From IMG/VR virus record IMGVR_UViG_3300008267_001363, positions 1 through 33,563 of that record: a stretch of 33,563 nt of DNA, one strand, 5' to 3'. This document shows positions 10,249 through 29,042 of this stretch, piece after piece (positions within the stretch are counted from its first letter, which is position 1; each line of letters opens with the position of its first letter). The stretch comes from a virus. Both the position numbers and the translations under genes were made by a program. The notes under the pieces were generated by a model. The model did no database searches. It saw only the letters and a program-made list of their open reading frames with translations, and had not been told where the DNA came from.

Positions 10249-11898
10249 ATGTCACAAGTACAACAACTTTTAGAAAGCGCAGCTGGTTCTTGGAAGAACT
10301 TGCAAAGCGACGCCGCTAAATTGTCTAGCAAATGGACTAAAACCGGCTTATTAGAAGGTTTGGGTGAGGTTGAGAAAAACAATATGTCAATCTTACTTGA
10401 AAACCAAGCAAAACAGTTAGTAACAGAAGCTAACCAAATTTCTACTAACTCTTATTTTACTAACGGTACTCAAGGTGAAAACTGGGCTGGTATTGCATTA
10501 CCTTTAGTTCGTAAGGTATTCGGTACAATCGTAGCTAAAGAATTCGTTTCAGTTCAACCTATGAACATGCCTTCAGGCCTTGTGTTCTTCTTGGATTTCC
10601 AATATGGTAACTCTAAGACTCCATTCGGTGCTAACGGATCTTTATATGGTGACAGGAACGCTTCTGGTCCATTCCCATTTGCTACTCCTGCTGCTTCAGG
10701 TGGTCTTTACAATCCAGCTAACAAATTCTCCTACTCTCAAAACACAACTTCTTCAGTAGTATCTGCTACGATCATCACCGCCTCTTGGCAGGAAGTTAAT
10801 TTTGATTCTGAATTGTCAGCTTCTATCGCTGCTGGTAACGTTAAGAAATTCACAGTTTCTACAGCTACTACTACTTTACCTAACTTTGATGCTGATTCTA
10901 CAAGAGGATTCGCTTTCACTTCAGGTTCAATTTTCACAGTTGCTAGAGCTTTACCTCAGTTCACTACTTACAACTACACTGCAAACACTATTACTTTCTT
11001 CTTGACTGGTTCAACTGCTGAAACTAATGGTACTGCTGTAGCTGGTGGTTCTGTTGTAACTTACACTAAAGCTACTACTGATCAATACAGAGGTGATTTT
11101 GAAGAATCTTCTTCTTACGCTGTACCTAACGCTCAAAGTGCTACTCAAATCGTTATCCCTGAGATCAACGTTAAAATGCAATCTCAAGCCATCACTGCTA
11201 AGACTCGTAAGTTGAAAGCTGTATGGACTCCTGAATTCGCACAAGATTTAGCTGCTTACCAAAACATCGATGCTGAAGCTGAATTGACTAACATCATGAG
11301 TGAGTACATTTCAATGGAAATTGATTTGGAAATCTTGGATATGTTGATCGAAGATGCTGCTGCTGGTACTGAGTACTGGAGCGCAGTAAACAACACTACT
11401 ATTAGTACTACTGGTACTTTCGGTTCTGCTGGTTACTACAACACTCAAGGACAATGGTTCCAAACTTTGGGTACTAAAATCCAAAAGTTAAGCAACAAAA
11501 TTCACCAGTTAACTTTACGTGGTGGTGCTAATTTCTTGGTTACTTCTCCTACAGTTGCTACTGTGTTGGAATCTATCCCTGGATTTGCTTCTACTTCAAA
11601 TGGTGAAGCTGAACAAATGGAGTATGCTTTCGGTGTACAAAAAGTAGGTTCAGTAAACGGTCGTTACAAGGTTTACAAAAACCCTTACATGACTGAAAAC
11701 GTAATCTTGTTAGGTTACAAAGGTTCACAATTCTTGGAAACTGGTGCTGTATTTGCTCCTTACATTCCTATGATTATGACTCCTTTGGTGTACGATCCTG
11801 ATACCTTCACTCCACGTAAAGGTCTTTCCAAGTCAGTTACCCATTCAAAGTTTCGTTATGAACTTTCCATTCTCATTATCAACCGCAGATCCAAATAA
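10249..11898 (+). CDS. Major capsid protein (T4 gp23-like)
   Basis: The 549-residue HK97-fold shell protein carries QPMNMPSGLVFFLDFQYG (about residues 104-121), the counterpart of the QPMN segment of T4 gp23, and a C-terminal FLETGAVFAPYIPMIMTPLV then YDPDTFTPRKG block typical of gp23 relatives. Upstream, QLVTE-ANQ (cut after Glu60) resembles the FLTE-AE site where T4 gp21 trims gp23, so the mature protein probably starts at Ala61. Codon use is noticeably more C-rich than in the neighbours, consistent with high expression. T4 gp23 is 521 residues. The last 41 bases overlap the next gene in another frame, and the final residues (SILIINRRSK) are unlike the gp23 C-termini I know. Confidence 0.95.
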   Translation: MSQVQQLLESAAGSWKNLQSDAAKLSSKWTKTGLLEGLGEVEKNNMSILLENQAKQLVTEANQISTNSYFTNGTQGENWAGIALPLVRKVFGTIVAKEFVSVQPMNMPSGLVFFLDFQYGNSKTPFGANGSLYGDRNASGPFPFATPAASGGLYNPANKFSYSQNTTSSVVSATIITASWQEVNFDSELSASIAAGNVKKFTVSTATTTLPNFDADSTRGFAFTSGSIFTVARALPQFTTYNYTANTITFFLTGSTAETNGTAVAGGSVVTYTKATTDQYRGDFEESSSYAVPNAQSATQIVIPEINVKMQSQAITAKTRKLKAVWTPEFAQDLAAYQNIDAEAELTNIMSEYISMEIDLEILDMLIEDAAAGTEYWSAVNNTTISTTGTFGSAGYYNTQGQWFQTLGTKIQKLSNKIHQLTLRGGANFLVTSPTVATVLESIPGFASTSNGEAEQMEYAFGVQKVGSVNGRYKVYKNPYMTENVILLGYKGSQFLETGAVFAPYIPMIMTPLVYDPDTFTPRKGLSKSVTHSKFRYELSILIINRRSK

Positions 11899-12730
11899 CA
11901 TTTGGATGCAAGAGTTAACAGATGAGGAATTAGCAATTAATAAACCTAAAGCATACAAACAGTTTATGGACTTGTATAACTTTGTTGCTGGTGGTGCTCT
12001 AGTAAACTTATTACCCTCAGAAGGTAATTTTCAAGATCAAGTTTATGTAGCTAATTTGGGTATTTATTTACCTCACATTAAAAACGAAAATCATATTATT
12101 TTATCTAATTTTACTTCTGACCCTCGTAAAGGTGAAGAATTAGTTGGAGAAAAATATTTTAATCAAATGGGTTATAAAACAGCAATCTCCCCATACAAAT
12201 GGGAAGGTGAGGCCGATTTGAAATACCTTTACGGAAACAAATATATTGGTGGTTACGGTATTCGTTCAAACATCAAAGCATATGAGTGGATGGAAGAAAC
12301 TTACAATATGGATATTCTTAAAGTAGCTATGGTTGATGAATATTTGTATCATTTAGATTGTTCTATCTTCGCATTAAACCAAGACCAGACATTAGTTTGC
12401 ACTGAATTGTTTGATGAGGAAGAATTGCAAATGATGGAAAAAGAAACAGAAATTATTGATATTCATGTTGACGATGCTTTGTGTGGATTAACTAATTCTG
12501 TAAGAATGGGTAATATGATTATGTGTGCCTCTAATATTTCTGAATTGAAAAAATCACATGAGTATTATGAAGGTGAAAAACACAAAATTGAAACATTAGA
12601 AAAGATTTGTAGCGATGCTGGTATGGAACCTGCTATCTTCAATCTATCAGAATATATGAAATCAGGTGCTATGTTGTCTTGTATGATGATGCATTTGAAT
12701 AGAGTTGACCACAATAAAACCTTATTATAA
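11858..12730 (+). CDS. Amidinotransferase / dimethylargininase-family enzyme
   Basis: The 290-residue protein matches the guanidino-group-modifying superfamily (arginine deiminase, dimethylarginine dimethylaminohydrolase, amidinotransferases), which attacks the guanidinium carbon with a cysteine. In order: DPNNIWM (11-17), DQVYVANLGIYLP (60-72), DPRKGEE (88-94), WEGEADLKYL (115-124), GGYGIRSN (131-138), the His-Asp motif YHLDCSIFAL (164-173, His165 and Asp167), LTNSVRMGN (211-219), and near the end SEYMKSGAMLSCMMMHL with the presumed nucleophile Cys275. The full catalytic layout is kept, so an active enzyme is likely; the substrate is unknown. ATG 11858 is chosen because conserved PNN-W-M lies before the later ATG 11906. 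The start lies inside the capsid gene, and the stop shares an A with the next start. Confidence 0.85.
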   Translation: MNFPFSLSTADPNNIWMQELTDEELAINKPKAYKQFMDLYNFVAGGALVNLLPSEGNFQDQVYVANLGIYLPHIKNENHIILSNFTSDPRKGEELVGEKYFNQMGYKTAISPYKWEGEADLKYLYGNKYIGGYGIRSNIKAYEWMEETYNMDILKVAMVDEYLYHLDCSIFALNQDQTLVCTELFDEEELQMMEKETEIIDIHVDDALCGLTNSVRMGNMIMCASNISELKKSHEYYEGEKHKIETLEKICSDAGMEPAIFNLSEYMKSGAMLSCMMMHLNRVDHNKTLL

Positions 12731-13467
12731 TGGCACAAACATTACAAGAATGGTTAAGTACTGAAGTTAAACAACTTCAGAAAATGCCTGTTGGAGAATT
12801 ATCTAACACATTTTTCTTTAGAGACCCAATTCGCCCAAACTATATTGACCATGAGCATTTTTACTCACCTGCTGATGGAACTATTTTATACCAAAAGTTT
12901 ATTAAAGATCCTTCTGAACCTATAGTTGAAATTAAGGGTATGAATTATACTCTTCAAGATGTTATGGGCGATGATGAATACAATAAACCTTCACTAGTTA
13001 TTGGTATATTTATGTCGTTTTATGATGTTCACATCAATCGTATACCCTACGGAGGTCTGCTGTCATATAAACCACTAGACGCGATTCAATCAACTAACAA
13101 ACCTATGTTGGCGGTTGAAAAAGATATATTAAATAAAAAAATTAACCCCGCAAACATGGAGTACTTAAAGTATAACGAGCGTATGTGGAATAAAATTTAT
13201 TCACCTACCTTAGATTATACTTATTACTTAATTCAAATTGCTGACGAGGATGTAAACGTTATTGCTCCCTTTACTATGGATCAAAACGATGTTTTTGCTC
13301 AAAACGAAAGATTTTCTTTAATTAGATGGGGTTCACAGGTTGATTTGGTGTTACCATTAGATGATAGATATGATTTCGAGTTATGTTTAGATGATGCTAT
13401 GCATGTTAATGCTGGCTTAGACCAACTTGTAAAAATTAACTTTAATGAATACAAAACTAACTCATGA
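12730..13467 (+). CDS. Phosphatidylserine decarboxylase-family pyruvoyl enzyme
   Basis: The 245-residue protein carries the family signature in order: FFFRDPIRPNY (28-38), YSPADG with Asp49 (45-50), IFMSFYDVHINRIPYGG with His101 (93-109), NERMWNK (149-155), YYLIQIADEDVNVI (165-178), and the self-cleavage region NERFSLIRWGSQVDLVLP with Gly201-Ser202 (192-209). In the family an Asp-His-Ser triad cuts before the serine, which becomes the pyruvoyl cofactor of the alpha chain; all three are present. Characterised members convert phosphatidylserine to phosphatidylethanolamine at the membrane; some relatives act on amino acids. No membrane helix is seen, and the length suits the short bacterial forms. 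It is joined by overlaps to the enzyme before it and to the PhoH gene after it. Confidence 0.88.
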   Translation: MAQTLQEWLSTEVKQLQKMPVGELSNTFFFRDPIRPNYIDHEHFYSPADGTILYQKFIKDPSEPIVEIKGMNYTLQDVMGDDEYNKPSLVIGIFMSFYDVHINRIPYGGLLSYKPLDAIQSTNKPMLAVEKDILNKKINPANMEYLKYNERMWNKIYSPTLDYTYYLIQIADEDVNVIAPFTMDQNDVFAQNERFSLIRWGSQVDLVLPLDDRYDFELCLDDAMHVNAGLDQLVKINFNEYKTNS

Positions 13468-18467: not shown

Positions 18468-21400
18468 ATGCCTGCAATAAGCTCATCTTATAATATATTT
18501 TTCGGGACAGCATCATGGAATGACCCGTCTATCTGGATTGGTGGTATAGTACCTACAGCAAGTGATGATGTAATGATTCAGGGACATAGATTCCTAAATA
18601 AAACTCAAGACAACATAGGAGGAATAGGTTCCTTAAATTTTGGTCAAGTAGCATATGGTATTCCCTATTGGACAGGTTCAAGAGATATTGTAGTTAATAA
18701 TGAAACTACAACAGGCTCAGGTACTGTTCCTTCAAATGGATTTCCTTTTCCTCAAACCGGTTCAATATATACTTACACAAATTTTAATGAATTAGTTAAA
18801 ATTGATTATAAAGGATACCATTTTTCAGGTTCAGGACAAGGTAGTGTATTTAGAAGTTGTTCTGTAGATACTGCTTTTTATTCTTGGAATTCATCTTCAT
18901 TTCCAAGTAGTGAACCTATGCCTTCTACTCGTGGAGGTTATATTCCTGCTGAATTTGGATATTTTTTCTTTCAACCAGGAGTTATTTCTATTTCTGGTTC
19001 AGATCAAGTAGATCTTTTTAGAGTAACAATTCAAAACGGTGGTAAGTTACATATTCAAGATAGTGCATCTATTAGATTAAGAAACTATATTCAAGTAAAT
19101 GATGGTGAATTAAAAGTATCAGGATCAGTAACTATTGCATATGATAATCCATGGACGGGTTCTATTGGTGGTGCTCCTACTGATATGAGACAATTAACAT
19201 TTATTTCTCAATCATCATATTATTTTTCAACGGTTGAATTTACAGGTCCTGAAGTACGATTAAATACAAGTTTAACATCAAGCGCAAGTATAGGCGATTC
19301 TTTTTTAACAGTAAAAAATACATCTTCCTTTGAAAAAGGAGATTGGATTTTTGTTGGTGAAGATGAACCAAACACCCCTCGAACTGATATGGGTTGGAAA
19401 GGTAGAACTTTTCCTCAAGATTATGCTACTTATGGTGAACCTTCTAGTGAAGATGAAGCTTTTTATGTAGCTGGAAAATCAAACAATAGACTTTATGTTC
19501 AAAGAATAAACGGTATTTATGCAGAAATATTAGCTAGTTCAAGTGCAACTCAATGGATTGTTGATGAAGAAAGATTTAACATTGGAGATAAAGTAGTAAT
19601 TAATAATCAAACAGCTACTATTACTAATGTTGAGGATTATGATTTATTATTAAACGATTATGATTTTACAAATCCAACAGCCTCTTTAGCTAATTTTGAA
19701 ACCTCAAGTTTAAAAGCAGCTAATTTTAGAGGATGGGAAATTATACCAGGAATAGGACTTGCTACAAGAGCAAGACAAGAAGGATTTATTTATGATATTC
19801 GTACTACTTTAGAAAAAACTGTAGTTAGAGATAAAGTAAAATTTGAGGCATGGATGTATAATATACCTCCAAACATAACAGGAAGCAGACCAGGTATAGA
19901 TATTAGTTTAAACAATTTGTATCCTGATAACTATGATAAAGCATATGATACTTTTGGAATACTTATTAACTCAGAATTTGGATGTGATGATACTTTTTAT
20001 ACCATTGAAGCAGGAGAAAATCTTACACCTAATCAACAACTAGGATTTACTAGAACTTATTTAGGAGTTAATGCATCAAAAGGATTTTATTTTTTAAATC
20101 CAAGATATAATATTGGTGGTTCTCAATCACAAAGTTTAGATTTAGCAAATGTAGGATTTAAAAAACCAAATTATTTAGGATTATATAAATTTGGATTAGA
20201 ATATTCAAAAGGATTTATTAAAGGATACATAAATGATACTTTAGTTGCTGAACAAATAGTTGAAAATGGAGGGTTTTGGGGAAGAAATGGATTTTGGACT
20301 AGAAACCCATATGTTTTTATTACAAGATATAGAACATATGCTAAATGTCAACGAATAACTTTAAACACCGGAGTAACAGCAAGTATTGGAGATACATTCT
20401 ATGAAACTGGAGTAGAATTTGCTCATCCTACTGGAAGCCAAGTAATTAAATTAGCTTCTATTATTACTGATTTAGTAGATCACACTAATTTATCTCATGC
20501 TTATGCGGGTACTAGTGAATACTCTAATTCTGGAATTAATCCTATTATTTACCAAACAAATGTATTTGATACTGAAAGTAGATATAATCTTTCACTTCAA
20601 AATGCTTCTTGGACTTTACATCAAAGTGCAAGAAATGATACTCAAGCATATGTTGATTTAGGTGCAGGTACTGGATTTTCAAATAAAAACATAACAATAG
20701 ATTTAGGAACTCCAACAACATTTTCAAACGCTGGATTTTCAGAATATTATCAAACTTATGGACAACGTTTAAATAATCCAATTAATCCTCCTGCAGTATC
20801 AGGTAGTTTAGATGCTATTACTTGGGTTCCAATTACTGGAGGTATTGATAATAGAAGTAGAATTCATACTGATGGAATTAGAGATTTTAATTTTCCACCT
20901 GTAGTTTATCGTTATGTAAGATTTAATTTTAATGGTAATCCTTCAAACATAAATAATAATCATATTAGAAGTTTATTTGTAAGAAATTTTGCTTCGGGTT
21001 CAAATAATCCAAGAATTAAAGTAAATAATACTTCTGATTTTAATGTTGGTGATCATATAGCTATTCTTTCAAGTAATATACAAAACACAAACCTTTTTGT
21101 AAACCCTACTCATATAACTCCATTTATTAATGCTAACTCTAGTTCTCAAGATTTATTAGATTTTTATCCTGATCACTATGTAGTAAAACAAGTATCAGGA
21201 AGTTTCCTAACTTTAGATAGAATAGTTAATAGAATGCCATTAGCTAAAGGTTCAATGGTTGTTAAAATAAATAAAGGTTTAAGTGTTACTGGTTCTTTTT
21301 CATCTGGTTCTTATCGTTCTGGTGGTGGAATTATATCTGCATTTGCTAATGGTACTATGTATCAAAACTTTTTTAAAATAAAAAATGTAGCTTTCCAGCA

Positions 21401-22817
21401 TATGAATACTTACACTCCTGCTGTACAACCATCCCCATACCAAAATTATTATGGTACTATTCAAAGAAACCATTCATTTGCTAAAACAACATTCCAGGGA
21501 AATTCTATGTATAATAACTGGAATGGATATCAAACTATTGCATGGTTTGCATCAGGTCAATATTGGGGTTCAGGGGTATTGTTAGCAAGACATAATGCTT
21601 TTATTAACATGCAGTCTGGTTTAGGTAGTATTCTTAATACTAACCAAAATGGTTTTAGCGTTGGTCCTTTAGTATTTACTGGGAATGTAGTTACTTATTA
21701 TTATAATGGATTTGGCTCTAATAACTTTGCATATACTTCTAACTCATATAATGTGTATAGTGCTTGTGATGTTATGTTTGGTGGTGTTGGTGTTGCCAGT
21801 TCTCCTTCTGTTAGTACATACCCACGATTTGGATATCAAAGCAAATACCTTCAAATTAGAAATTATGGGTTATCTATAGGAAATATACATAATATATTTA
21901 ATTCTTTATCTACTATATCTGAAAAAAGAGGTACTGTAGTTATTAGAAATAATGGATTTTCAAATTCTTGGTATGGTGGTGGTGGATATTACGCTAGTCC
22001 TGATTTTGCGTTTATAGAACATATTTATCCAAAAAGAGGAGGATTAGATTTTAGAGCTACTAACAAAATGTATTATGTTGGATCTTCAGATGGTGGTTTT
22101 CCTAGTTCTTTAGGAGATCTTGTTGAAGCTGGTTTAACAAATCAGTATTTAAAAAATCACAATAGATGGGGTTATGATATATGGACAACTAACAAAGGTT
22201 ATTGGATAAAATATCCTAATTTAAATTATTTTAAATTTTATGTAAATGGAGGAGCTCCTACAAATTATTCTGTATCATCACCATTACTATCAGCACATGC
22301 CCAAGTATTAACTAATACAACTGCTTCATTTAATATTAATTTTGATTATTATAACAGTATAGATCAAATAACTCAATTAAATCATTTTACTTCTATGAGT
22401 TTAGATTTAGGTGGTTTATTCCCTTCTAATAGAGATGAGTGGGTTACAAAAGGCAATCAGGCTGGTGCTTTAATGTTGTGGGTATTAAAAAATGGTAAAA
22501 GTATTTTACCTAATGGGGTACCTTATGAGGTATTACCTAAAGTATCTGATTTTACTAATTTTTCAAGAACCTTTAGTTTTGAAGGTAAAGGAAATTATTA
22601 TGTAATGATTACTTCTGAACATTATAGAGGTCACATAGGATTTAAAGGATTAGATAGTGTATTTAAATCACCAAGTGCTGATGATGCTTTCTTAACATTC
22701 AATGCTTTTACACAGAAAAACTTTACTTTAAACGAAGAAAAAACAATTAGAAAAGCAACTACTGTGTATGGTGAACCTGAATCAAAATTTAGATTAAAAG
22801 GAGCAAGATTATTTTAA
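18468..22817 (+). CDS. Giant multidomain adhesin or depolymerase, copy A (G8, lectin-like, F5/8C-like, beta-helix)
   Basis: The 1449-residue protein starts with a G8-type beta domain (FFGTASWNDPSIWIGGIVPT near residue 11; GGKLHIQDSASIRLRNYIQV near 190). A lectin-like beta-sandwich region occupies about 400-640, and a discoidin/F5-8C-like segment with ITIDLGTPTTFSNAGF and VVYRYVRFNFNG about 725-830. Around 960-1200 the repeated short beta strands with Asn/Gly turns (FKIKNVAFQHMN) suggest a right-handed beta helix. The C-terminus ends KFRLKGARLF. G8 plus beta helix occurs in carbohydrate-processing proteins such as CEMIP-type hyaluronan-binding proteins, so surface glycan binding or cleavage is a fair inference; no catalytic residues could be assigned. 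The next giant gene is a paralogue. Confidence 0.78.
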   Translation: MPAISSSYNIFFGTASWNDPSIWIGGIVPTASDDVMIQGHRFLNKTQDNIGGIGSLNFGQVAYGIPYWTGSRDIVVNNETTTGSGTVPSNGFPFPQTGSIYTYTNFNELVKIDYKGYHFSGSGQGSVFRSCSVDTAFYSWNSSSFPSSEPMPSTRGGYIPAEFGYFFFQPGVISISGSDQVDLFRVTIQNGGKLHIQDSASIRLRNYIQVNDGELKVSGSVTIAYDNPWTGSIGGAPTDMRQLTFISQSSYYFSTVEFTGPEVRLNTSLTSSASIGDSFLTVKNTSSFEKGDWIFVGEDEPNTPRTDMGWKGRTFPQDYATYGEPSSEDEAFYVAGKSNNRLYVQRINGIYAEILASSSATQWIVDEERFNIGDKVVINNQTATITNVEDYDLLLNDYDFTNPTASLANFETSSLKAANFRGWEIIPGIGLATRARQEGFIYDIRTTLEKTVVRDKVKFEAWMYNIPPNITGSRPGIDISLNNLYPDNYDKAYDTFGILINSEFGCDDTFYTIEAGENLTPNQQLGFTRTYLGVNASKGFYFLNPRYNIGGSQSQSLDLANVGFKKPNYLGLYKFGLEYSKGFIKGYINDTLVAEQIVENGGFWGRNGFWTRNPYVFITRYRTYAKCQRITLNTGVTASIGDTFYETGVEFAHPTGSQVIKLASIITDLVDHTNLSHAYAGTSEYSNSGINPIIYQTNVFDTESRYNLSLQNASWTLHQSARNDTQAYVDLGAGTGFSNKNITIDLGTPTTFSNAGFSEYYQTYGQRLNNPINPPAVSGSLDAITWVPITGGIDNRSRIHTDGIRDFNFPPVVYRYVRFNFNGNPSNINNNHIRSLFVRNFASGSNNPRIKVNNTSDFNVGDHIAILSSNIQNTNLFVNPTHITPFINANSSSQDLLDFYPDHYVVKQVSGSFLTLDRIVNRMPLAKGSMVVKINKGLSVTGSFSSGSYRSGGGIISAFANGTMYQNFFKIKNVAFQHMNTYTPAVQPSPYQNYYGTIQRNHSFAKTTFQGNSMYNNWNGYQTIAWFASGQYWGSGVLLARHNAFINMQSGLGSILNTNQNGFSVGPLVFTGNVVTYYYNGFGSNNFAYTSNSYNVYSACDVMFGGVGVASSPSVSTYPRFGYQSKYLQIRNYGLSIGNIHNIFNSLSTISEKRGTVVIRNNGFSNSWYGGGGYYASPDFAFIEHIYPKRGGLDFRATNKMYYVGSSDGGFPSSLGDLVEAGLTNQYLKNHNRWGYDIWTTNKGYWIKYPNLNYFKFYVNGGAPTNYSVSSPLLSAHAQVLTNTTASFNINFDYYNSIDQITQLNHFTSMSLDLGGLFPSNRDEWVTKGNQAGALMLWVLKNGKSILPNGVPYEVLPKVSDFTNFSRTFSFEGKGNYYVMITSEHYRGHIGFKGLDSVFKSPSADDAFLTFNAFTQKNFTLNEEKTIRKATTVYGEPESKFRLKGARLF

Positions 22818-22846
22818 TTAATAAATGTAATAAAACAAAAAATTAA

Positions 22847-22856
22847 ATATTTATAA
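22847..22856 (+). promoter_or_regulatory. Boundary motif ATATTTATAA before giant adhesin copy B
   Basis: This exact copy lies in the 43-base gap between the two giant genes. Only five bases separate the core from ATG 22861, the tightest spacing seen. A transcript starting a few bases downstream would be close to leaderless for that ATG, or have a roughly 140-base leader for ATG 22999. Confidence 0.5.
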
Positions 22857-22860
22857 AAGT

Positions 22861-25800
22861 ATGAATGATGTAATTAAAATTTTAGGAGAAAGATGGACAT
22901 ATGTTTACTCCGCTATGGGGTATGGTAATTGGGGTTATAATAAAGATAACAACGAATTTACTTCAAACAATATGGTGTCAAGAAAAAATCGGATACTAAT
23001 GCCAATCAGATACTCAATATCAGGTTCATTTTTTGGTTCAGCTAGCTGGGATAACCCAGCTATTTGGTATGGAGGTATAGTACCTACAGCTAGTGACCAA
23101 GTTTATATTCAAGGTATAAGAACAACAATTAACAACGCCCCCGGATATTATCCTTGGTTAGGGCAACAAACTCTTATTGTTGCCAATACAGCCTCTTTAC
23201 CCCCTTCAGGAACACTTTATACTTATACTGATAGAGATGAAGAAATTAAAATTAATTACTCAGCAATTTCAGCAAGTAATAGATTATTAAGTTGTTCTAT
23301 TGATACTTCTTTTTATTCTTGGAGTTTAGATATATTCCCAATTACTGAATCTTTACCATCTAAAAAAGGTGGTATTATTCCTAACGGTGCTTTTGTATAT
23401 TTTAAACCAGGTACTATTATGATTACCTCTAGCATGGTAGTTTCTGCCTCTAGTGATGTTATCAATGATAGATCAGGTATTTATATTTACCAAGGAGGTG
23501 CTTTAAGTTTACAAAGTGGAAGTACATTAGCTATTAATGGTCGTGTATGGGTTGATGATGGAGAATTAACAGCAACAGGTTCTGCCTTATTTAAATTTGA
23601 TAGACACAATACTACATCTTCTGATGATTTCCGTTGGCATTATTACAATGGATTATTTGCTTCAAACTCTCCCATGCAAAAAGTTGTTTTTGATGGTCCT
23701 GAAGTAAGAACTAATACTAGATTATCTCAAAGTATGGCTGTAGGTGATACTTCCTTTACTGTAAACAGTTCTACTGGGTTTGAGGTTGGGGATTATGTAT
23801 TTATTGGTCAAGAAAACTTTAGTCAATCTAGAACAGATAATGGATTAACAGGTAGAACAATTGCTGTACCTAGTTCTTCAAATGATGAAATATTTGAAAT
23901 AGCATTTAAAGCAACAGGAAGCCGTTTGTTTGTTAAACGCATGAACGGTTTTGAAGGTAATATTTTAGCAACAGCATCTGCTACTCAATTAATAGTAGAT
24001 GAAAAAAGATTTGTTGCCGGAGATAAAGTTTTAATTAACGGTCAAGTAAGAACAATTGTTTCCTCATCTATATATGAATTACAAGTAGGTGATTATGATT
24101 TCCAATCGGGTGCAACTTTAGCAGATTGGGAAACAGATATTACTCGTTCATTTTGGAATAATGACTGGACGTTATATCCTGGTTTAGGACTAGCACAATT
24201 TACTACAGTACAGTATCGACATTTATTTATTAAAAACTTAATGTTAGATGATGTTAAAGTAGAAGCATATGTTTCTAACTTAAGAAACGTTACTAATGGA
24301 TCAGGTAGTAGAGCATCTTACGGTATTCATATTCAAGCAGAACCTCAATGTGATTATGATTTTACTTCTCCCACAGTTACTGGTCCTGGACCCAACCCCG
24401 CAAGCTGGCCTGTAAGAACATCATTTGTTGTAGACCCAGCAAATGCTAGAATGTATTTAAGACAAAAATGGGCTGGACATACTATATACGATAACATATA
24501 CACTAGTAGTTTTGCTATAGATGGACCTAAAAAACTTACATTAGAAACCGAAAATGGGTTTGTTAGAGCATACGTTAACGATACTTTATTTACTGAAGAA
24601 ATTATCCGCACAGGTGGAGCAACATGGGGTCGAGTAGGTTTGTTTACTGACGGTAATAACTGTCTAGTATGCACTAGATTTACAGTTAAACGTAAGTGTG
24701 AATTGCTAGTTTTAGATGCACCTATAACGGTAGCTATTGGTGATAAAGTAGTAGAAACAGGAGCAGAATATGCTCACAATCCAAACGATCGTGTAATTAA
24801 ATTATTATCTGTAGTAACAGATCCTGCAGAACACGTTAATTATGCTATGGCATATAGAGGCGCTGCAAATTATACAACAAATAACCCCGCAAGTGGTAGT
24901 ACAAATATGTCAGGTAGTTTTCCTTATATATTTGCAAACAATGCTTGGGGTACTACAGCATCTAAAACACAAGATACTTATAATTTTTGGAGATTATTAC
25001 CTGATTATCAAAGAAACTTTTATGATTATGGTCAAAACCAATTTACTAGAAGTGTTGTTATTGATTTAGGTCAACCTGTAACATTTAACAATTTTGGTTT
25101 TATAGAAGATTATATTAATGCTGGTCAAAACTGGACAAGCTCAAGAGGTATCCAAATTTCGGGTAGTAACACTATTACAGGTTCATTTGTAACAGCTTCT
25201 GATTGGGTTCCATTAACATCATCATTTATAGATGAAAGATGGAGAACATCAGGTGAAACATTTAGAGGATTTAGAATTGGAGGACCTCATACCTACAGAT
25301 TTGTAAGAATTGAGTGGAATGGTGGTAATACTAGAGCTGCATCTCCTGGATTTAATAGAATTAGAGGATTACGTTTACGATATAACGTATCTAATAGTTT
25401 ACAATTAAATAACACATCAGATTTAAATATTGGAGACGAAGTATTAATTATTTCTAAAAATAATACAGCTTATAACTACCGAAATATTTTAGATTACACA
25501 GGTCAATTATTTGGTACAACAGCAAGCGCGGCTCAATTTGTAGATCAAATGAGACAACATTATATTATTGCTAACAAGAGTGGTAGTATGATTTATTTAG
25601 ATAGACCATGTGAAGAAGGTGATATTGAAAAAGGTGCTCTTGTAGTTAAAGTTAACAGAATAATGAAATTCTCCGGTTCAATGGACTCAGGTTCAGGTAA
25701 CTGGAAAATGGGTAAAATCACTATTGATGGAGGTAATAACCAATTACCTGTTAGAAGAATTAAATTTAATAATGTATCTTTCCAACATATTAATTATTAT

Positions 25801-27117
25801 TTCCCCGCTCACGGTAGTTTTAATAACTGGTCAAATACAGGATTTAATTTTAGAGAAATAAACTGGTATAATTATAGTAGTGGTATAACAGGATGTACTT
25901 TATACAACTGTTTTAATTATGCTACTGCAAACTATTGGTATTACAGAGCAGGATATAATTTAAGACATAGTGTATTTACACACCATACTTCTTTTTATAT
26001 TTTTTCTGAACAAAATAATACTGCTGCTCCTATTGTAGCTAATGGAAATATATTCTATGGAATAAATGGTATTGCGGGAATACCTTCTAATTCTGCCATG
26101 AATATGTTTAATTACAATTTTAACATGACTGGAGATTGGATATTACCATCATATACTCCTGCATCTAAAGCAGGAGCCTTTACTAATTATACTACAACTA
26201 TAGTTCTTAGAAGAAATGAAATTTCTGGAACAAGAGCTCAATGGTTAGCTCAAAGTTATAATGATAATATAGGTAGTCAACATTTTTATGATGTGAATAG
26301 TAATTTGATTAAATCTAATCAAACAGCAGGATCTACTATATACATTTATAACCAAGTAGACAAAGCACATACTAATCCGTTCTTACTACCTAAACGTATG
26401 GGATTAGATGCTAATATGTGGTCAGTTTCTTGGAATAACAACTCTTCATTACCCTCCCCAATCAACCCAGGTACTTTGGGTACTCCAGTAGGTACAGTAG
26501 GTAACTATATTAAAGATTGGAACAGATGGGGTTATAATAGATGGACTAATAACTTTGGTGATTGGGTAAAATTACCAAACGATAATTTCTATAAATTCTA
26601 TAGAAATAACTGGATGGGTGTAGACTATAGATATCCTTTACTAAATGCTAGTTTTTATTTAGCAGAAGGTGTTTCTGGTAGTTTTGATGTTAGCTTTGAT
26701 TATTACATGACTAAAAACGTAGTAAACCAAGGAATGAATACTACTTATGCAAGTGGTAGTTTGTATATGATTGCTTTAAAAGAAGGATTTGAAATGGATA
26801 GTGTTAGTGGTAGTGCTTATATTACCGCTAGAATACCAAAATCTGAAACTCCTATAAACTTTACAAAAACTTATCAAGTACAAGGTCCTGGTCACTTTGT
26901 AATAGGAATTGGTGGAGCTGATTTCTTAAGCGGATATGTAGCAATAAATAACGTTTCAAGCCGATTAAATATACCCGATAATGACCAAGCTCAAGTATTT
27001 GTAAATAACTTAAACATGAGATACTTTGATAAAGGAGACAGATGGTTAGCTAAAACAATGTATACTCAACCAATTAACCAACCTAAATTCAGATTAAAAG
27101 GCGCTAGACTATTCTAA
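22861..27117 (+). CDS. Giant multidomain adhesin or depolymerase, copy B (paralogue)
   Basis: The 1418-residue protein is collinear with the preceding giant. Matched segments include FFGSASWDNPAIWYGGIVPT, CSIDTSFYSWS, SATQLIVDEKRFVAGDKVLI, RWGYNRWTNNFGDWVKLP and the identical C-terminal KFRLKGARLF. The F5/8C-like part (VVIDLGQPVTFNNFGF, YRFVRIEWNGG) lies at about residues 730-825 and the beta-helix-like region after about 960. It differs from copy A by a 46-residue N-terminal extension: the residue matching the start of copy A is Met at 22999. Either start is possible; the motif at 22847 favours 22861. The stop shares an A with the next start. Two divergent copies suggest recognition of two different surface glycans, or a heteromeric spike. 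Confidence 0.76.
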   Translation: MNDVIKILGERWTYVYSAMGYGNWGYNKDNNEFTSNNMVSRKNRILMPIRYSISGSFFGSASWDNPAIWYGGIVPTASDQVYIQGIRTTINNAPGYYPWLGQQTLIVANTASLPPSGTLYTYTDRDEEIKINYSAISASNRLLSCSIDTSFYSWSLDIFPITESLPSKKGGIIPNGAFVYFKPGTIMITSSMVVSASSDVINDRSGIYIYQGGALSLQSGSTLAINGRVWVDDGELTATGSALFKFDRHNTTSSDDFRWHYYNGLFASNSPMQKVVFDGPEVRTNTRLSQSMAVGDTSFTVNSSTGFEVGDYVFIGQENFSQSRTDNGLTGRTIAVPSSSNDEIFEIAFKATGSRLFVKRMNGFEGNILATASATQLIVDEKRFVAGDKVLINGQVRTIVSSSIYELQVGDYDFQSGATLADWETDITRSFWNNDWTLYPGLGLAQFTTVQYRHLFIKNLMLDDVKVEAYVSNLRNVTNGSGSRASYGIHIQAEPQCDYDFTSPTVTGPGPNPASWPVRTSFVVDPANARMYLRQKWAGHTIYDNIYTSSFAIDGPKKLTLETENGFVRAYVNDTLFTEEIIRTGGATWGRVGLFTDGNNCLVCTRFTVKRKCELLVLDAPITVAIGDKVVETGAEYAHNPNDRVIKLLSVVTDPAEHVNYAMAYRGAANYTTNNPASGSTNMSGSFPYIFANNAWGTTASKTQDTYNFWRLLPDYQRNFYDYGQNQFTRSVVIDLGQPVTFNNFGFIEDYINAGQNWTSSRGIQISGSNTITGSFVTASDWVPLTSSFIDERWRTSGETFRGFRIGGPHTYRFVRIEWNGGNTRAASPGFNRIRGLRLRYNVSNSLQLNNTSDLNIGDEVLIISKNNTAYNYRNILDYTGQLFGTTASAAQFVDQMRQHYIIANKSGSMIYLDRPCEEGDIEKGALVVKVNRIMKFSGSMDSGSGNWKMGKITIDGGNNQLPVRRIKFNNVSFQHINYYFPAHGSFNNWSNTGFNFREINWYNYSSGITGCTLYNCFNYATANYWYYRAGYNLRHSVFTHHTSFYIFSEQNNTAAPIVANGNIFYGINGIAGIPSNSAMNMFNYNFNMTGDWILPSYTPASKAGAFTNYTTTIVLRRNEISGTRAQWLAQSYNDNIGSQHFYDVNSNLIKSNQTAGSTIYIYNQVDKAHTNPFLLPKRMGLDANMWSVSWNNNSSLPSPINPGTLGTPVGTVGNYIKDWNRWGYNRWTNNFGDWVKLPNDNFYKFYRNNWMGVDYRYPLLNASFYLAEGVSGSFDVSFDYYMTKNVVNQGMNTTYASGSLYMIALKEGFEMDSVSGSAYITARIPKSETPINFTKTYQVQGPGHFVIGIGGADFLSGYVAINNVSSRLNIPDNDQAQVFVNNLNMRYFDKGDRWLAKTMYTQPINQPKFRLKGARLF

Positions 27118-29042
27118 TGGGAAAAGATATAATAATAAAACCATCCTCTAGTATAATCCAATTCTCCGGGAGTACCGGAGAAATTGGAGCTAGTATTGAA
27201 TTAGATAACGTAGGAAGATTAGTATTATCTTCCTCACAAGTTATTTTTGGTCCCGGAAATAATGACATTTATGTTGGAGATGGTACTTCTAGCGCAAATA
27301 TTATTTTTGATAGAGACGGTGCTATTAAAGCCGAATCAGGAAGTAATGCCCAAATTACTTTAGGATCAGGAGATTCAAGATTAAACATATCAGGTAGTAC
27401 TGTTTATATCACAGGTAGTAATGTAGCAATTGGACCTTTTAGTTCAAGTTTTGCTAATATTACTAGTGGTTCTATTACCGCAAGTATTAGCTCAAACTTT
27501 ATTTCTGCTAGTGTTGTAAGCGCAAGTAATGCTAGAATTAATAATTTAGTAACTACTAATTATACTAGTTCTTATATTGCTTTACAACCTGATGGTGCTA
27601 TTTATTTTAATGATAATACATTAGCAGTAGCTGGATTAAAAGCACAAAACTATGTTGATACTGGTTCATTAATTCCTTTTGGAGATACAGCAGGTGATGC
27701 TTTTAGAATTGTATCCGCTAGTACAAACTGGTTCTTTATAGCATCTGGATATGATGCAACAGGTTCATTACCTCCATCAACCGGAAGTGTACATTACTTT
27801 GGAACAGGTTCAGTATCTGCAAGTGCTTTTGAATTATTAGGTAATAAAATAAATAGTGTATTAAGTTCTAGTTTATTATTTTATACTATTAACAGTACAA
27901 TATTTGCCCTTAGTGCATCATTTACTGGTTCAAGATATAATGGAATTATTTTCCAATCTGGTTCTTTTTCAGGTTCCGTTTCAGGTTCAACAGGTACTTC
28001 GTTTAATACAATTTTCACATTAGCTGGAGGTACTAATTATACTTCTAGTTTCTTAGATAGAGGTGGTAGTATTTCTTTAGATAATTTAGGAAATATTGTT
28101 ATTGATAGTGTTTCTGGTAGTGTTTACTTAGCTAAAGATAGACATGATATCTACATTGGTGATGGTACTAGCTCAGCAAATATAGTATTTGATTACAACG
28201 GTGCTATTAAAGGTGAAGCTAATGCTAGATTTAATACTGGTAGTTTTGGCTTAATTTCAGGAAGTAGATTAAACTTAAATAATAACAGTGGTATTTTCTT
28301 CACAGGAAGTACTTCAACTCCAGGAGCTAGTATTCAATTAGACAATTTTGGTGATTTAGTATTATCGGCTGTTAGTGGTAATGTTAGTATTGGTAACAAT
28401 ACAAACGAAATCTATATTGGTGATGGAACAGGCTCAGCATCATTATTGTTTGATACTGGAGGAAATATAAAAACCACTAATGGTAATGCATTATTGATAG
28501 GTTCATCTTCTGCACCTTTATATTTAACAGGTTCAAGTGTTGTATTACAGCAAAATGGTGGTACTACAGTATTTGGTGGATCTACAGTAGTTACAGGTTC
28601 ATTTACAGGTTCATTTATTGGAAACGGTTCAGGATTAACAAATTTAAATATATCCTCTTCAAATACATCAGGTTCATTTACAGGTTCATTTGGTGGTACT
28701 GGTTCATTAAGATTAGAAACAGGTTCAGTAGGTTTATCTTTAGATGTAGCTTCTGATTTCTTAAGATTTTCATCAGGTTCAACTGTAAACTTTGCAGCAC
28801 AACAAGTAGCAGGTACTACAAGCATGTCTTTTGCCTTTAATACAGGTTCAGCTGTTGGTGGTCAAGGTGCTACATTTGATGTTAGAGCAACTGCTGTTAT
28901 AATGAACCCACAAGGAGCTAACTACAATGAAAATTTAAGATTACCAGCATCTCCTGGTGGATATTCTTCTATTGTAATGAATGGTCCTGTAGCAGGATTA
29001 GCATCTCAAGGAGGAGTATGGTCAATTTATTCCTACATTTAG
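27117..29042 (+). CDS. Repeat-rich tail fibre protein, 3' end out of frame
   Basis: The 641-residue product is Ser/Gly/Thr-rich. A unit of about 60 residues occurs three times, built of a SI-x-LDN-x-G strand pair followed by DIYVGDGTSSANIIFD-type text. The shaft contains SGS/TGS triplets and the hinge FTGSFIGNGSGLTNL. A C-terminal beta domain follows (LRLPASPGGYSSIVMNGPVA). The frame ends abruptly at TAG 29040-29042 after WSIYSYI, while the expected tip continues in another frame. The start overlaps the stop of the giant paralogue. It is likely a trimeric fibre shaft translated with copy B. Confidence 0.78.
   Translation: MGKDIIIKPSSSIIQFSGSTGEIGASIELDNVGRLVLSSSQVIFGPGNNDIYVGDGTSSANIIFDRDGAIKAESGSNAQITLGSGDSRLNISGSTVYITGSNVAIGPFSSSFANITSGSITASISSNFISASVVSASNARINNLVTTNYTSSYIALQPDGAIYFNDNTLAVAGLKAQNYVDTGSLIPFGDTAGDAFRIVSASTNWFFIASGYDATGSLPPSTGSVHYFGTGSVSASAFELLGNKINSVLSSSLLFYTINSTIFALSASFTGSRYNGIIFQSGSFSGSVSGSTGTSFNTIFTLAGGTNYTSSFLDRGGSISLDNLGNIVIDSVSGSVYLAKDRHDIYIGDGTSSANIVFDYNGAIKGEANARFNTGSFGLISGSRLNLNNNSGIFFTGSTSTPGASIQLDNFGDLVLSAVSGNVSIGNNTNEIYIGDGTGSASLLFDTGGNIKTTNGNALLIGSSSAPLYLTGSSVVLQQNGGTTVFGGSTVVTGSFTGSFIGNGSGLTNLNISSSNTSGSFTGSFGGTGSLRLETGSVGLSLDVASDFLRFSSGSTVNFAAQQVAGTTSMSFAFNTGSAVGGQGATFDVRATAVIMNPQGANYNENLRLPASPGGYSSIVMNGPVAGLASQGGVWSIYSYI
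27261..28472 (+). repeat. Three in-frame 23-codon repeats within the fibre gene
   Basis: The best-conserved parts lie at 27261-27329, 28143-28211 and 28404-28472. They encode NDIYVGDGTSSANIIFD, HDIYIGDGTSSANIVFD and NEIYIGDGTGSASLLFD, each followed by a Gly-containing turn and an Ile-Lys. Each is preceded by a SI-LDN-G strand pair. Such modular repeats lengthen fibre shafts and can recombine. Confidence 0.85.

Follow-up and report, generated by a model that had tools for sequence, protein, structure and literature searches.

The self-cleavage of Escherichia coli phosphatidylserine decarboxylase (PSD) depends chiefly on the residues D90/D142-H144-S254 (Cho et al., PMC7952604). This enzyme does not use substrates without acyl chains, and it contacts the lipid phosphate through residues other than the Arg-Arg pair of the type II PSDs (PMC7952604). 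The same fold occurs in PsiD, an L-tryptophan decarboxylase (PDB 8x4q), which shows that it can also act on a free amino acid. The chain of PsiD is larger (342–350 residues) than that of the phage protein considered here and shares about 10% identity with it. To our knowledge, the fungal pathway of PsiD has no arginine hydrolase partner.

Viral precedents for putrescine formation are the arginase and ornithine decarboxylase (ODC) of Klosneuvirus and phage SpeD homologues that have turned into pyruvoyl ODCs or ADCs (PMC9992855). They share either the proposed net conversion or the cofactor logic with the gene pair described below, but belong to other enzyme families, and the main text of PMC9992855 mentions neither phosphatidylserine decarboxylase nor dihydrolase. 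In Campylobacter jejuni and Bacteroides thetaiotaomicron, both hosts of isolated phages that carry the pair, spermidine is made from putrescine through carboxyspermidine (PMC10135574; PMC10413350). A paper on ocean auxiliary metabolic genes found psd to be negligible and proposed a lipid role for it (PMC11360552); the argZ-psd pair is absent from that paper. Homologues of both genes are present in Campylobacter phage NCTC12673 as gp085 and gp044, with 38–41% identity in tblastn; the former is annotated as phosphatidylserine decarboxylase and the latter as Aminidotransferase, and these annotations draw no connection between the two. For each of them, the annotators of NCTC12673 pointed to a homologue in Saccharopolyspora.

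The window, i.e., the whole 33.6-kb stretch of DNA analyzed, is the record of a T4-like phage with genes for terminase, portal, prohead protease, a gp23-type major capsid protein (MCP), argZ, psd, PhoH, and structural proteins. The features on which the comparison is based are the following.

10249–11898, + strand: gp23-type MCP, upstream neighbor (PF07068, E 2.3e-73)
11858–12730, + strand: argZ, ArgZ-like guanidino-group hydrolase, 290 aa (phmmer, profile, Foldseek); proposed first enzyme of the pair
12053–12055, + strand: codon of Asn66, aligned with ArgZ/AgrE Asn71; invariant, and also present in bacterial ArgZ/DDAH-like relatives
12350–12352, + strand: codon of His165, aligned with AgrE His168; invariant
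12680–12682, + strand: codon of Cys275, the presumed catalytic residue near the C-terminus; invariant in phage and cellular relatives, paired with ArgZ Cys264 by position in the fold
12730–13467, + strand: psd, soluble PSD-fold decarboxylase, 245 aa, ATG to TGA; proposed second enzyme of the pair
12730–12810, + strand: first 27 residues of the protein, devoid of a membrane helix, where bacterial type II PSDs have transmembrane segments (hydropathy)
12874–12876, + strand: codon of Asp49, equivalent to E. coli PSD D90 (HMMER and phage homologue alignments)
13030–13032, + strand: codon of His101, equivalent to E. coli PSD H144 (HMMER and phage homologue alignments)
13243–13260, + strand: codons 172–177 (D-E-D-V-N-V) in place of the G..ARR segment of type II PSDs (alignment)
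13330–13335, + strand: Gly201-Ser202, predicted self-cleavage site giving the pyruvoyl group; GSQ in all phage homologues
13445–14140, + strand: PhoH-like ATPase, downstream neighbor (PF02562, E 2.5e-64)

The genes are tightly packed. The capsid gene and argZ overlap by 41 bases, the ATG of psd shares one base (12730) with the TAA of argZ, and psd overlaps the PhoH gene by 23 bases, which bears out the operon position and the translational tie to these neighbors given in a preliminary description of this DNA. Its further statement that psd belongs to a capsid operon and is made late fits this lineage only, as the genes have other locations in the phages of Bacteroides and Campylobacter; judged from the gene order, late expression may be expected here.

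The product of psd resembles the PSDs (PF02666; E. coli PSD, PDB 7cnz/6l06, and the bacterial type II enzymes) in its fold, its Asp-His-Ser residues, its Gly-Ser site, and its NER motif. In the profile search, residues 27–229 matched PF02666 with E 2.1e-24 and 86.7 bits against a cut-off of 22; a six-frame search of the window found the match at 12730–13467 again, and four other phage homologues also scored above the gathering threshold. The family assignment made earlier was thereby supported, as was the set of residues on which it had been based: Asp49, His101, Gly201, and Ser202 do not vary in 32–34 phage homologues, and the motifs DVHINRIP and NERM lie at residues 99–106 and 149–152. HMMER pairs Asp49, Asp99, and His101 with D90, D142, and H144 of E. 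coli PSD. This alignment stops at residue 112, so that Ser202 is paired with S254 by the Gly-Ser motif and by the match to Pfam. Asp99 is present in most phage homologues, while those of Bacteroides phages have Ser in its place and keep Asp49. By analogy of these residues, autocleavage at Gly201-Ser202 would be expected in the phage protein. The structural comparison pointed the same way. The AlphaFold2 model (pLDDT 79, pTM 0.81) was placed on the PSD fold by Foldseek against the PDB, with E. coli PSD (7cnz_C; E 6e-4, probability 1.00, TM 0.43) as the best and PsiD (8x4q; E 0.012) as the second-best match, the TM-scores being modest throughout (0.43–0.45). The protein is a member of phrog_12670, a group that carries no function label. 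For psd and argZ alike, dN/dS is about 0.03–0.08, indicating strong purifying selection on the two genes.

In other respects, the phage protein departs from the PSDs. The maximum 19-residue hydropathy within the first 45 residues is 0.43 in the phage homologues, against 2.2–3.1 in each of the 28 type II PSDs from bacteria that were compared, which represent the cellular subfamily nearest to the phage proteins. Where type II PSDs read Q-I-A-G-x-x-A-R-R-I, the phage protein has Q-I-A-D-E-D-V-N-V-I, so that the Arg-Arg pair is replaced by Asn-Val. Asp172 occurs in all 34 phage proteins and Glu130 is likewise invariant among them, whereas Arg is found at position 176 and at position 177 each in 26 of the 28 bacterial PSDs. 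This arginine pair is characteristic of the type II enzymes, where it would hold the lipid phosphate or head group. An insertion also precedes the NER motif, and the best score of the phage protein, 72.6 bits, falls far below the NCBIfam PSD equivalog cut-off of 183. The GSQ triplet was considered as a marker of the soluble enzyme and dropped, because membrane-anchored PSD paralogues with GSQ (L096, L097, and L098) occur in Bacteroidota genomes that have a second PSD-family match.

The partner gene had been called an amidinotransferase; the protein is nearer to the arginine dihydrolases ArgZ/AgrE both by sequence and by fold. Against AgrE/ArgZ in the PDB, phmmer gave E 6e-14 and the profile E 2e-21; ArgZ (6jv0) was the top Foldseek match (E 1.5e-15, TM 0.71–0.75), ahead of DDAH (E 1.8e-10) and the amidinotransferases (E 4e-8 and weaker). 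The protein belongs to phrog_12759. Asn66, Arg90, Glu116, Arg136, and His165 are conserved and align with AgrE positions 71, 90, 118, 139, and 168. The His, Cys, Asn, and Arg residues of the active site are thus present, yet they are common to DDAH-like relatives; for this reason Asn66, considered at first as a sign of a dihydrolase, was dropped, and it cannot be used to tell dihydrolases and deiminases apart. Judged by its nearest relatives, the protein would perform dihydrolase rather than deiminase chemistry. The cyanobacterial ArgZ/AgrE enzymes differ in carrying a second domain (ornithine cyclodeaminase) and share only about 22% identity with the phage protein, which scores 80 bits, far below the NCBIfam arginine dihydrolase equivalog cut-off of 450. 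The closest cellular relative was found in a Bacteroidota contig (L139, 10242–12047; G204 contig C49), where the gene lies beside a 300-aa ORF. Its product has Cys168 in common with the phage proteins and, unlike ArgZ/AgrE, shares with them an extra insertion before the catalytic Cys.

The two genes are retained together in several arrangements. Two IMG/VR scans, one per gene and with many contigs in both, yielded 160 viral loci, of which 157 contain argZ and psd and the other three run into contig ends. Among 50,697 phage records, a psd-like gene was found in 45 and an argZ-like gene in 47, namely the same 45, an error-rich Campylobacter record, and a Xanthomonas phage that lacks psd and whose DDAH gene is a more distant one. 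Because a broken psd was found separately in that Campylobacter record, 46 records (40 of Campylobacter and 6 of Bacteroides phages) have both genes. Campylobacter phage record PP921807.1 (L303), in which 619 small features are annotated and both argZ and psd are frameshifted, gives the impression of an error-rich assembly.

At least three contexts of the pair can be distinguished. In the main aquatic phage lineage, the order MCP-argZ-psd-PhoH recurs and is fixed, mostly with the one-base overlap, while related Flavobacterium and Microcystis phages have different cargo between MCP and PhoH. In Bacteroides phage DAC16 (L083) and the IMG/VR contigs L141/L142, the pair is accompanied by dUTPase, dCTP-deaminase-like, and IMPDH/GMP-reductase genes, away from the capsid genes. 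The cassette of L141/L142 contains an extra ORF, primase-like in appearance and without a Pfam match in L141. In the Campylobacter phages the pair is split: in NCTC12673, argZ is located between gp41 and gp45, about 42 kb from psd, and both genes are away from the capsid gene, unlike in the window. Linkage therefore does not explain the joint retention in these phages. Elsewhere, the two genes lie on opposite strands (L091/L140) or have other sequence inserted between them (L141 and L047). Few lineages have been sampled, the independent ones are small in number, and many contigs are near-identical. When genome contigs were scanned with the phage alignment for a cellular donor, the sole match was a contig of phage origin that had been binned in a Flavobacteriales metagenome-assembled genome (MAG), and tblastn against plasmids returned ordinary, mostly alphaproteobacterial PSDs (26–33% identity) and a few DDAH genes.

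The strongest argument for a single pathway is that the two genes are kept together in these different arrangements, although this points to a shared role rather than to a substrate. We consider it likely that a soluble PSD-fold decarboxylase works in one pathway with an arginine hydrolase. The best explanation that we can offer, with about an even chance of being correct, is that the ArgZ-like enzyme converts arginine to ornithine and the soluble pyruvoyl enzyme converts ornithine to putrescine. In such a pathway, L-arginine would be hydrolyzed to L-ornithine, ammonia, and CO2; self-cleavage at Gly201-Ser202 would turn Ser202 into the pyruvoyl group, to which the amino acid would be linked as a Schiff base; loss of CO2 would then yield putrescine from ornithine. 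The product could serve as a DNA counter-ion in packaging or feed the putrescine-to-spermidine route of the host. That ornithine is the substrate, in preference to arginine, citrulline, or some different amino acid, is an inference, as is the way in which virus or host would use the amine. The small-amino-acid substrate that the preliminary description had mentioned as a second option is now favored, the obligate ArgZ-like partner being the main clue that it lacked. More tentatively, and with somewhat less than an even chance, the phage protein may represent a PSD-fold ODC whose origin is separate from those of the PLP-dependent and SpeD-derived ODCs, forming together with the ArgZ-like dihydrolase an arginine-to-putrescine route that has spread in T4-like phages infecting Bacteroidota and Campylobacter. 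Two observations count against the module: other polyamine enzymes (AdoMetDC, CN-hydrolase) were not found in the pair-carrying phages examined, and the closest cellular argZ-like locus has no adjacent psd. The AdoMetDC family had no match in a Bacteroides control genome.

The role first proposed for this gene, that of a genuine phosphatidylserine decarboxylase increasing the phosphatidylethanolamine of the host, is very unlikely. It would account for the PF02666 match, the intact cleavage site and triad, the top Foldseek match, and the annotation of the Campylobacter phage homologues as PSD. However, the membrane anchor and the conserved type II residues are lost, and since E. coli PSD is inactive on substrates without acyl chains, a soluble form would need to dock to the membrane, for which a short helix at residues 5–16 of the model may offer a peripheral contact. 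Among 15 related phage records, 11 of which are IMG/VR contigs and possibly fragments, none yielded a CDP-alcohol phosphatidyltransferase and hence a recognizable PS synthase. Moreover, the host-like Flavobacteriales MAG that carries a close phage copy has a PSD of its own, and a lipid enzyme gives no reason for an obligate pairing with an arginine hydrolase. The phage protein is thus probably no lipid enzyme, and the proposed shift of host phospholipids towards phosphatidylethanolamine is not favored. The pairing itself might be fortuitous if a DDAH-like gene for arginine scavenging and an unrelated decarboxylase gene were independent auxiliary genes traveling together. The pair is adjacent in most lineages, where linkage alone could hold it, but the unlinked Campylobacter phages always have both genes, and the opposite strands and inserted sequences noted above argue in the same direction. 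Hitch-hiking by linkage was rejected on the Campylobacter phages, and we regard independent auxiliary genes as highly improbable.

Two further readings keep the enzymes together and change the chemistry. The PSD-fold enzyme could make agmatine from arginine or N-carbamoylputrescine from citrulline, with the ArgZ-like enzyme hydrolyzing the guanidino group before or after this step and a host N-carbamoylputrescine amidohydrolase finishing the route where needed. Arginine would be the common starting point, the hosts have agmatine and N-carbamoylputrescine as intermediates (PMC10135574), pelagiphages have pyruvoyl ADCs (PMC9992855), and the C. jejuni agmatine deiminase appeared in Foldseek as a more distant fold relative of the ArgZ-like protein. 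Against this order of steps, no CN-hydrolase was found in the phages, and Arg90 and Arg136 are invariant and aligned with AgrE Arg90 and Arg139. We take these arginines to be the binders of the substrate carboxylate in ArgZ, which would favor arginine over agmatine as the substrate of the hydrolase; we consider this alternative unlikely. Even less probable is a hypermodification pathway, in which the amine would be joined to the DNA, the RNA, or a virion protein of the phage and no free polyamine would be formed. Thymidine hypermodifications derived from amino acids are known in other phages, the pair adjoins nucleotide-metabolism-type genes (dUTPase, dCTP-deaminase-like, IMPDH) in DAC16 and L141/L142, and argZ of NCTC12673 lies between gp41 and gp45. 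In the main lineage, however, the neighbors are capsid and PhoH genes, and no transferase or base-modifying partner was seen among the genes examined beside the pair. Furthermore, deoxyinosine is reported to replace deoxyguanosine in the DNA of Campylobacter Fletchervirus, and we know of no amine-modified base reported from it.

The psd gene as such is not new, given the annotated Campylobacter phage homologues and the existing PHROG. The statement that no characterized phage enzyme of this type is known agrees with the papers found, but homologues are present in 39 Campylobacter phage records, many of them annotated as PSD. What appears to be new is that the two genes are coupled, that features of PSDs have been lost, and that the product is read as an amine; no paper describing this was found in the open-access literature. 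If arginine-to-putrescine conversion is correct, many phage genes named "phosphatidylserine decarboxylase" and "amidinotransferase" would be misnamed halves of one amine pathway, ornithine decarboxylases would gain a new fold, and a compact PLP-free route from arginine to putrescine would be added to those described. It would also suggest that phages of carboxyspermidine-route hosts supply putrescine, as other phages supply AdoMetDC. It would likewise bear directly on where T4-like phages get the polyamines used in packaging their DNA. In any case, caution is advised against counting phage psd and argZ genes as lipid-metabolism auxiliary genes.

Elsewhere in the window, three big ORFs (1449, 1418, and 641 aa) without PHROG matches occupy positions 18468–29042, the first of them with a weak F5/8 type C match under the cut-off. 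Upstream of the terminase gene, positions 397–1065 encode an AAA_28 domain protein (PF13521, E 6.5e-13).
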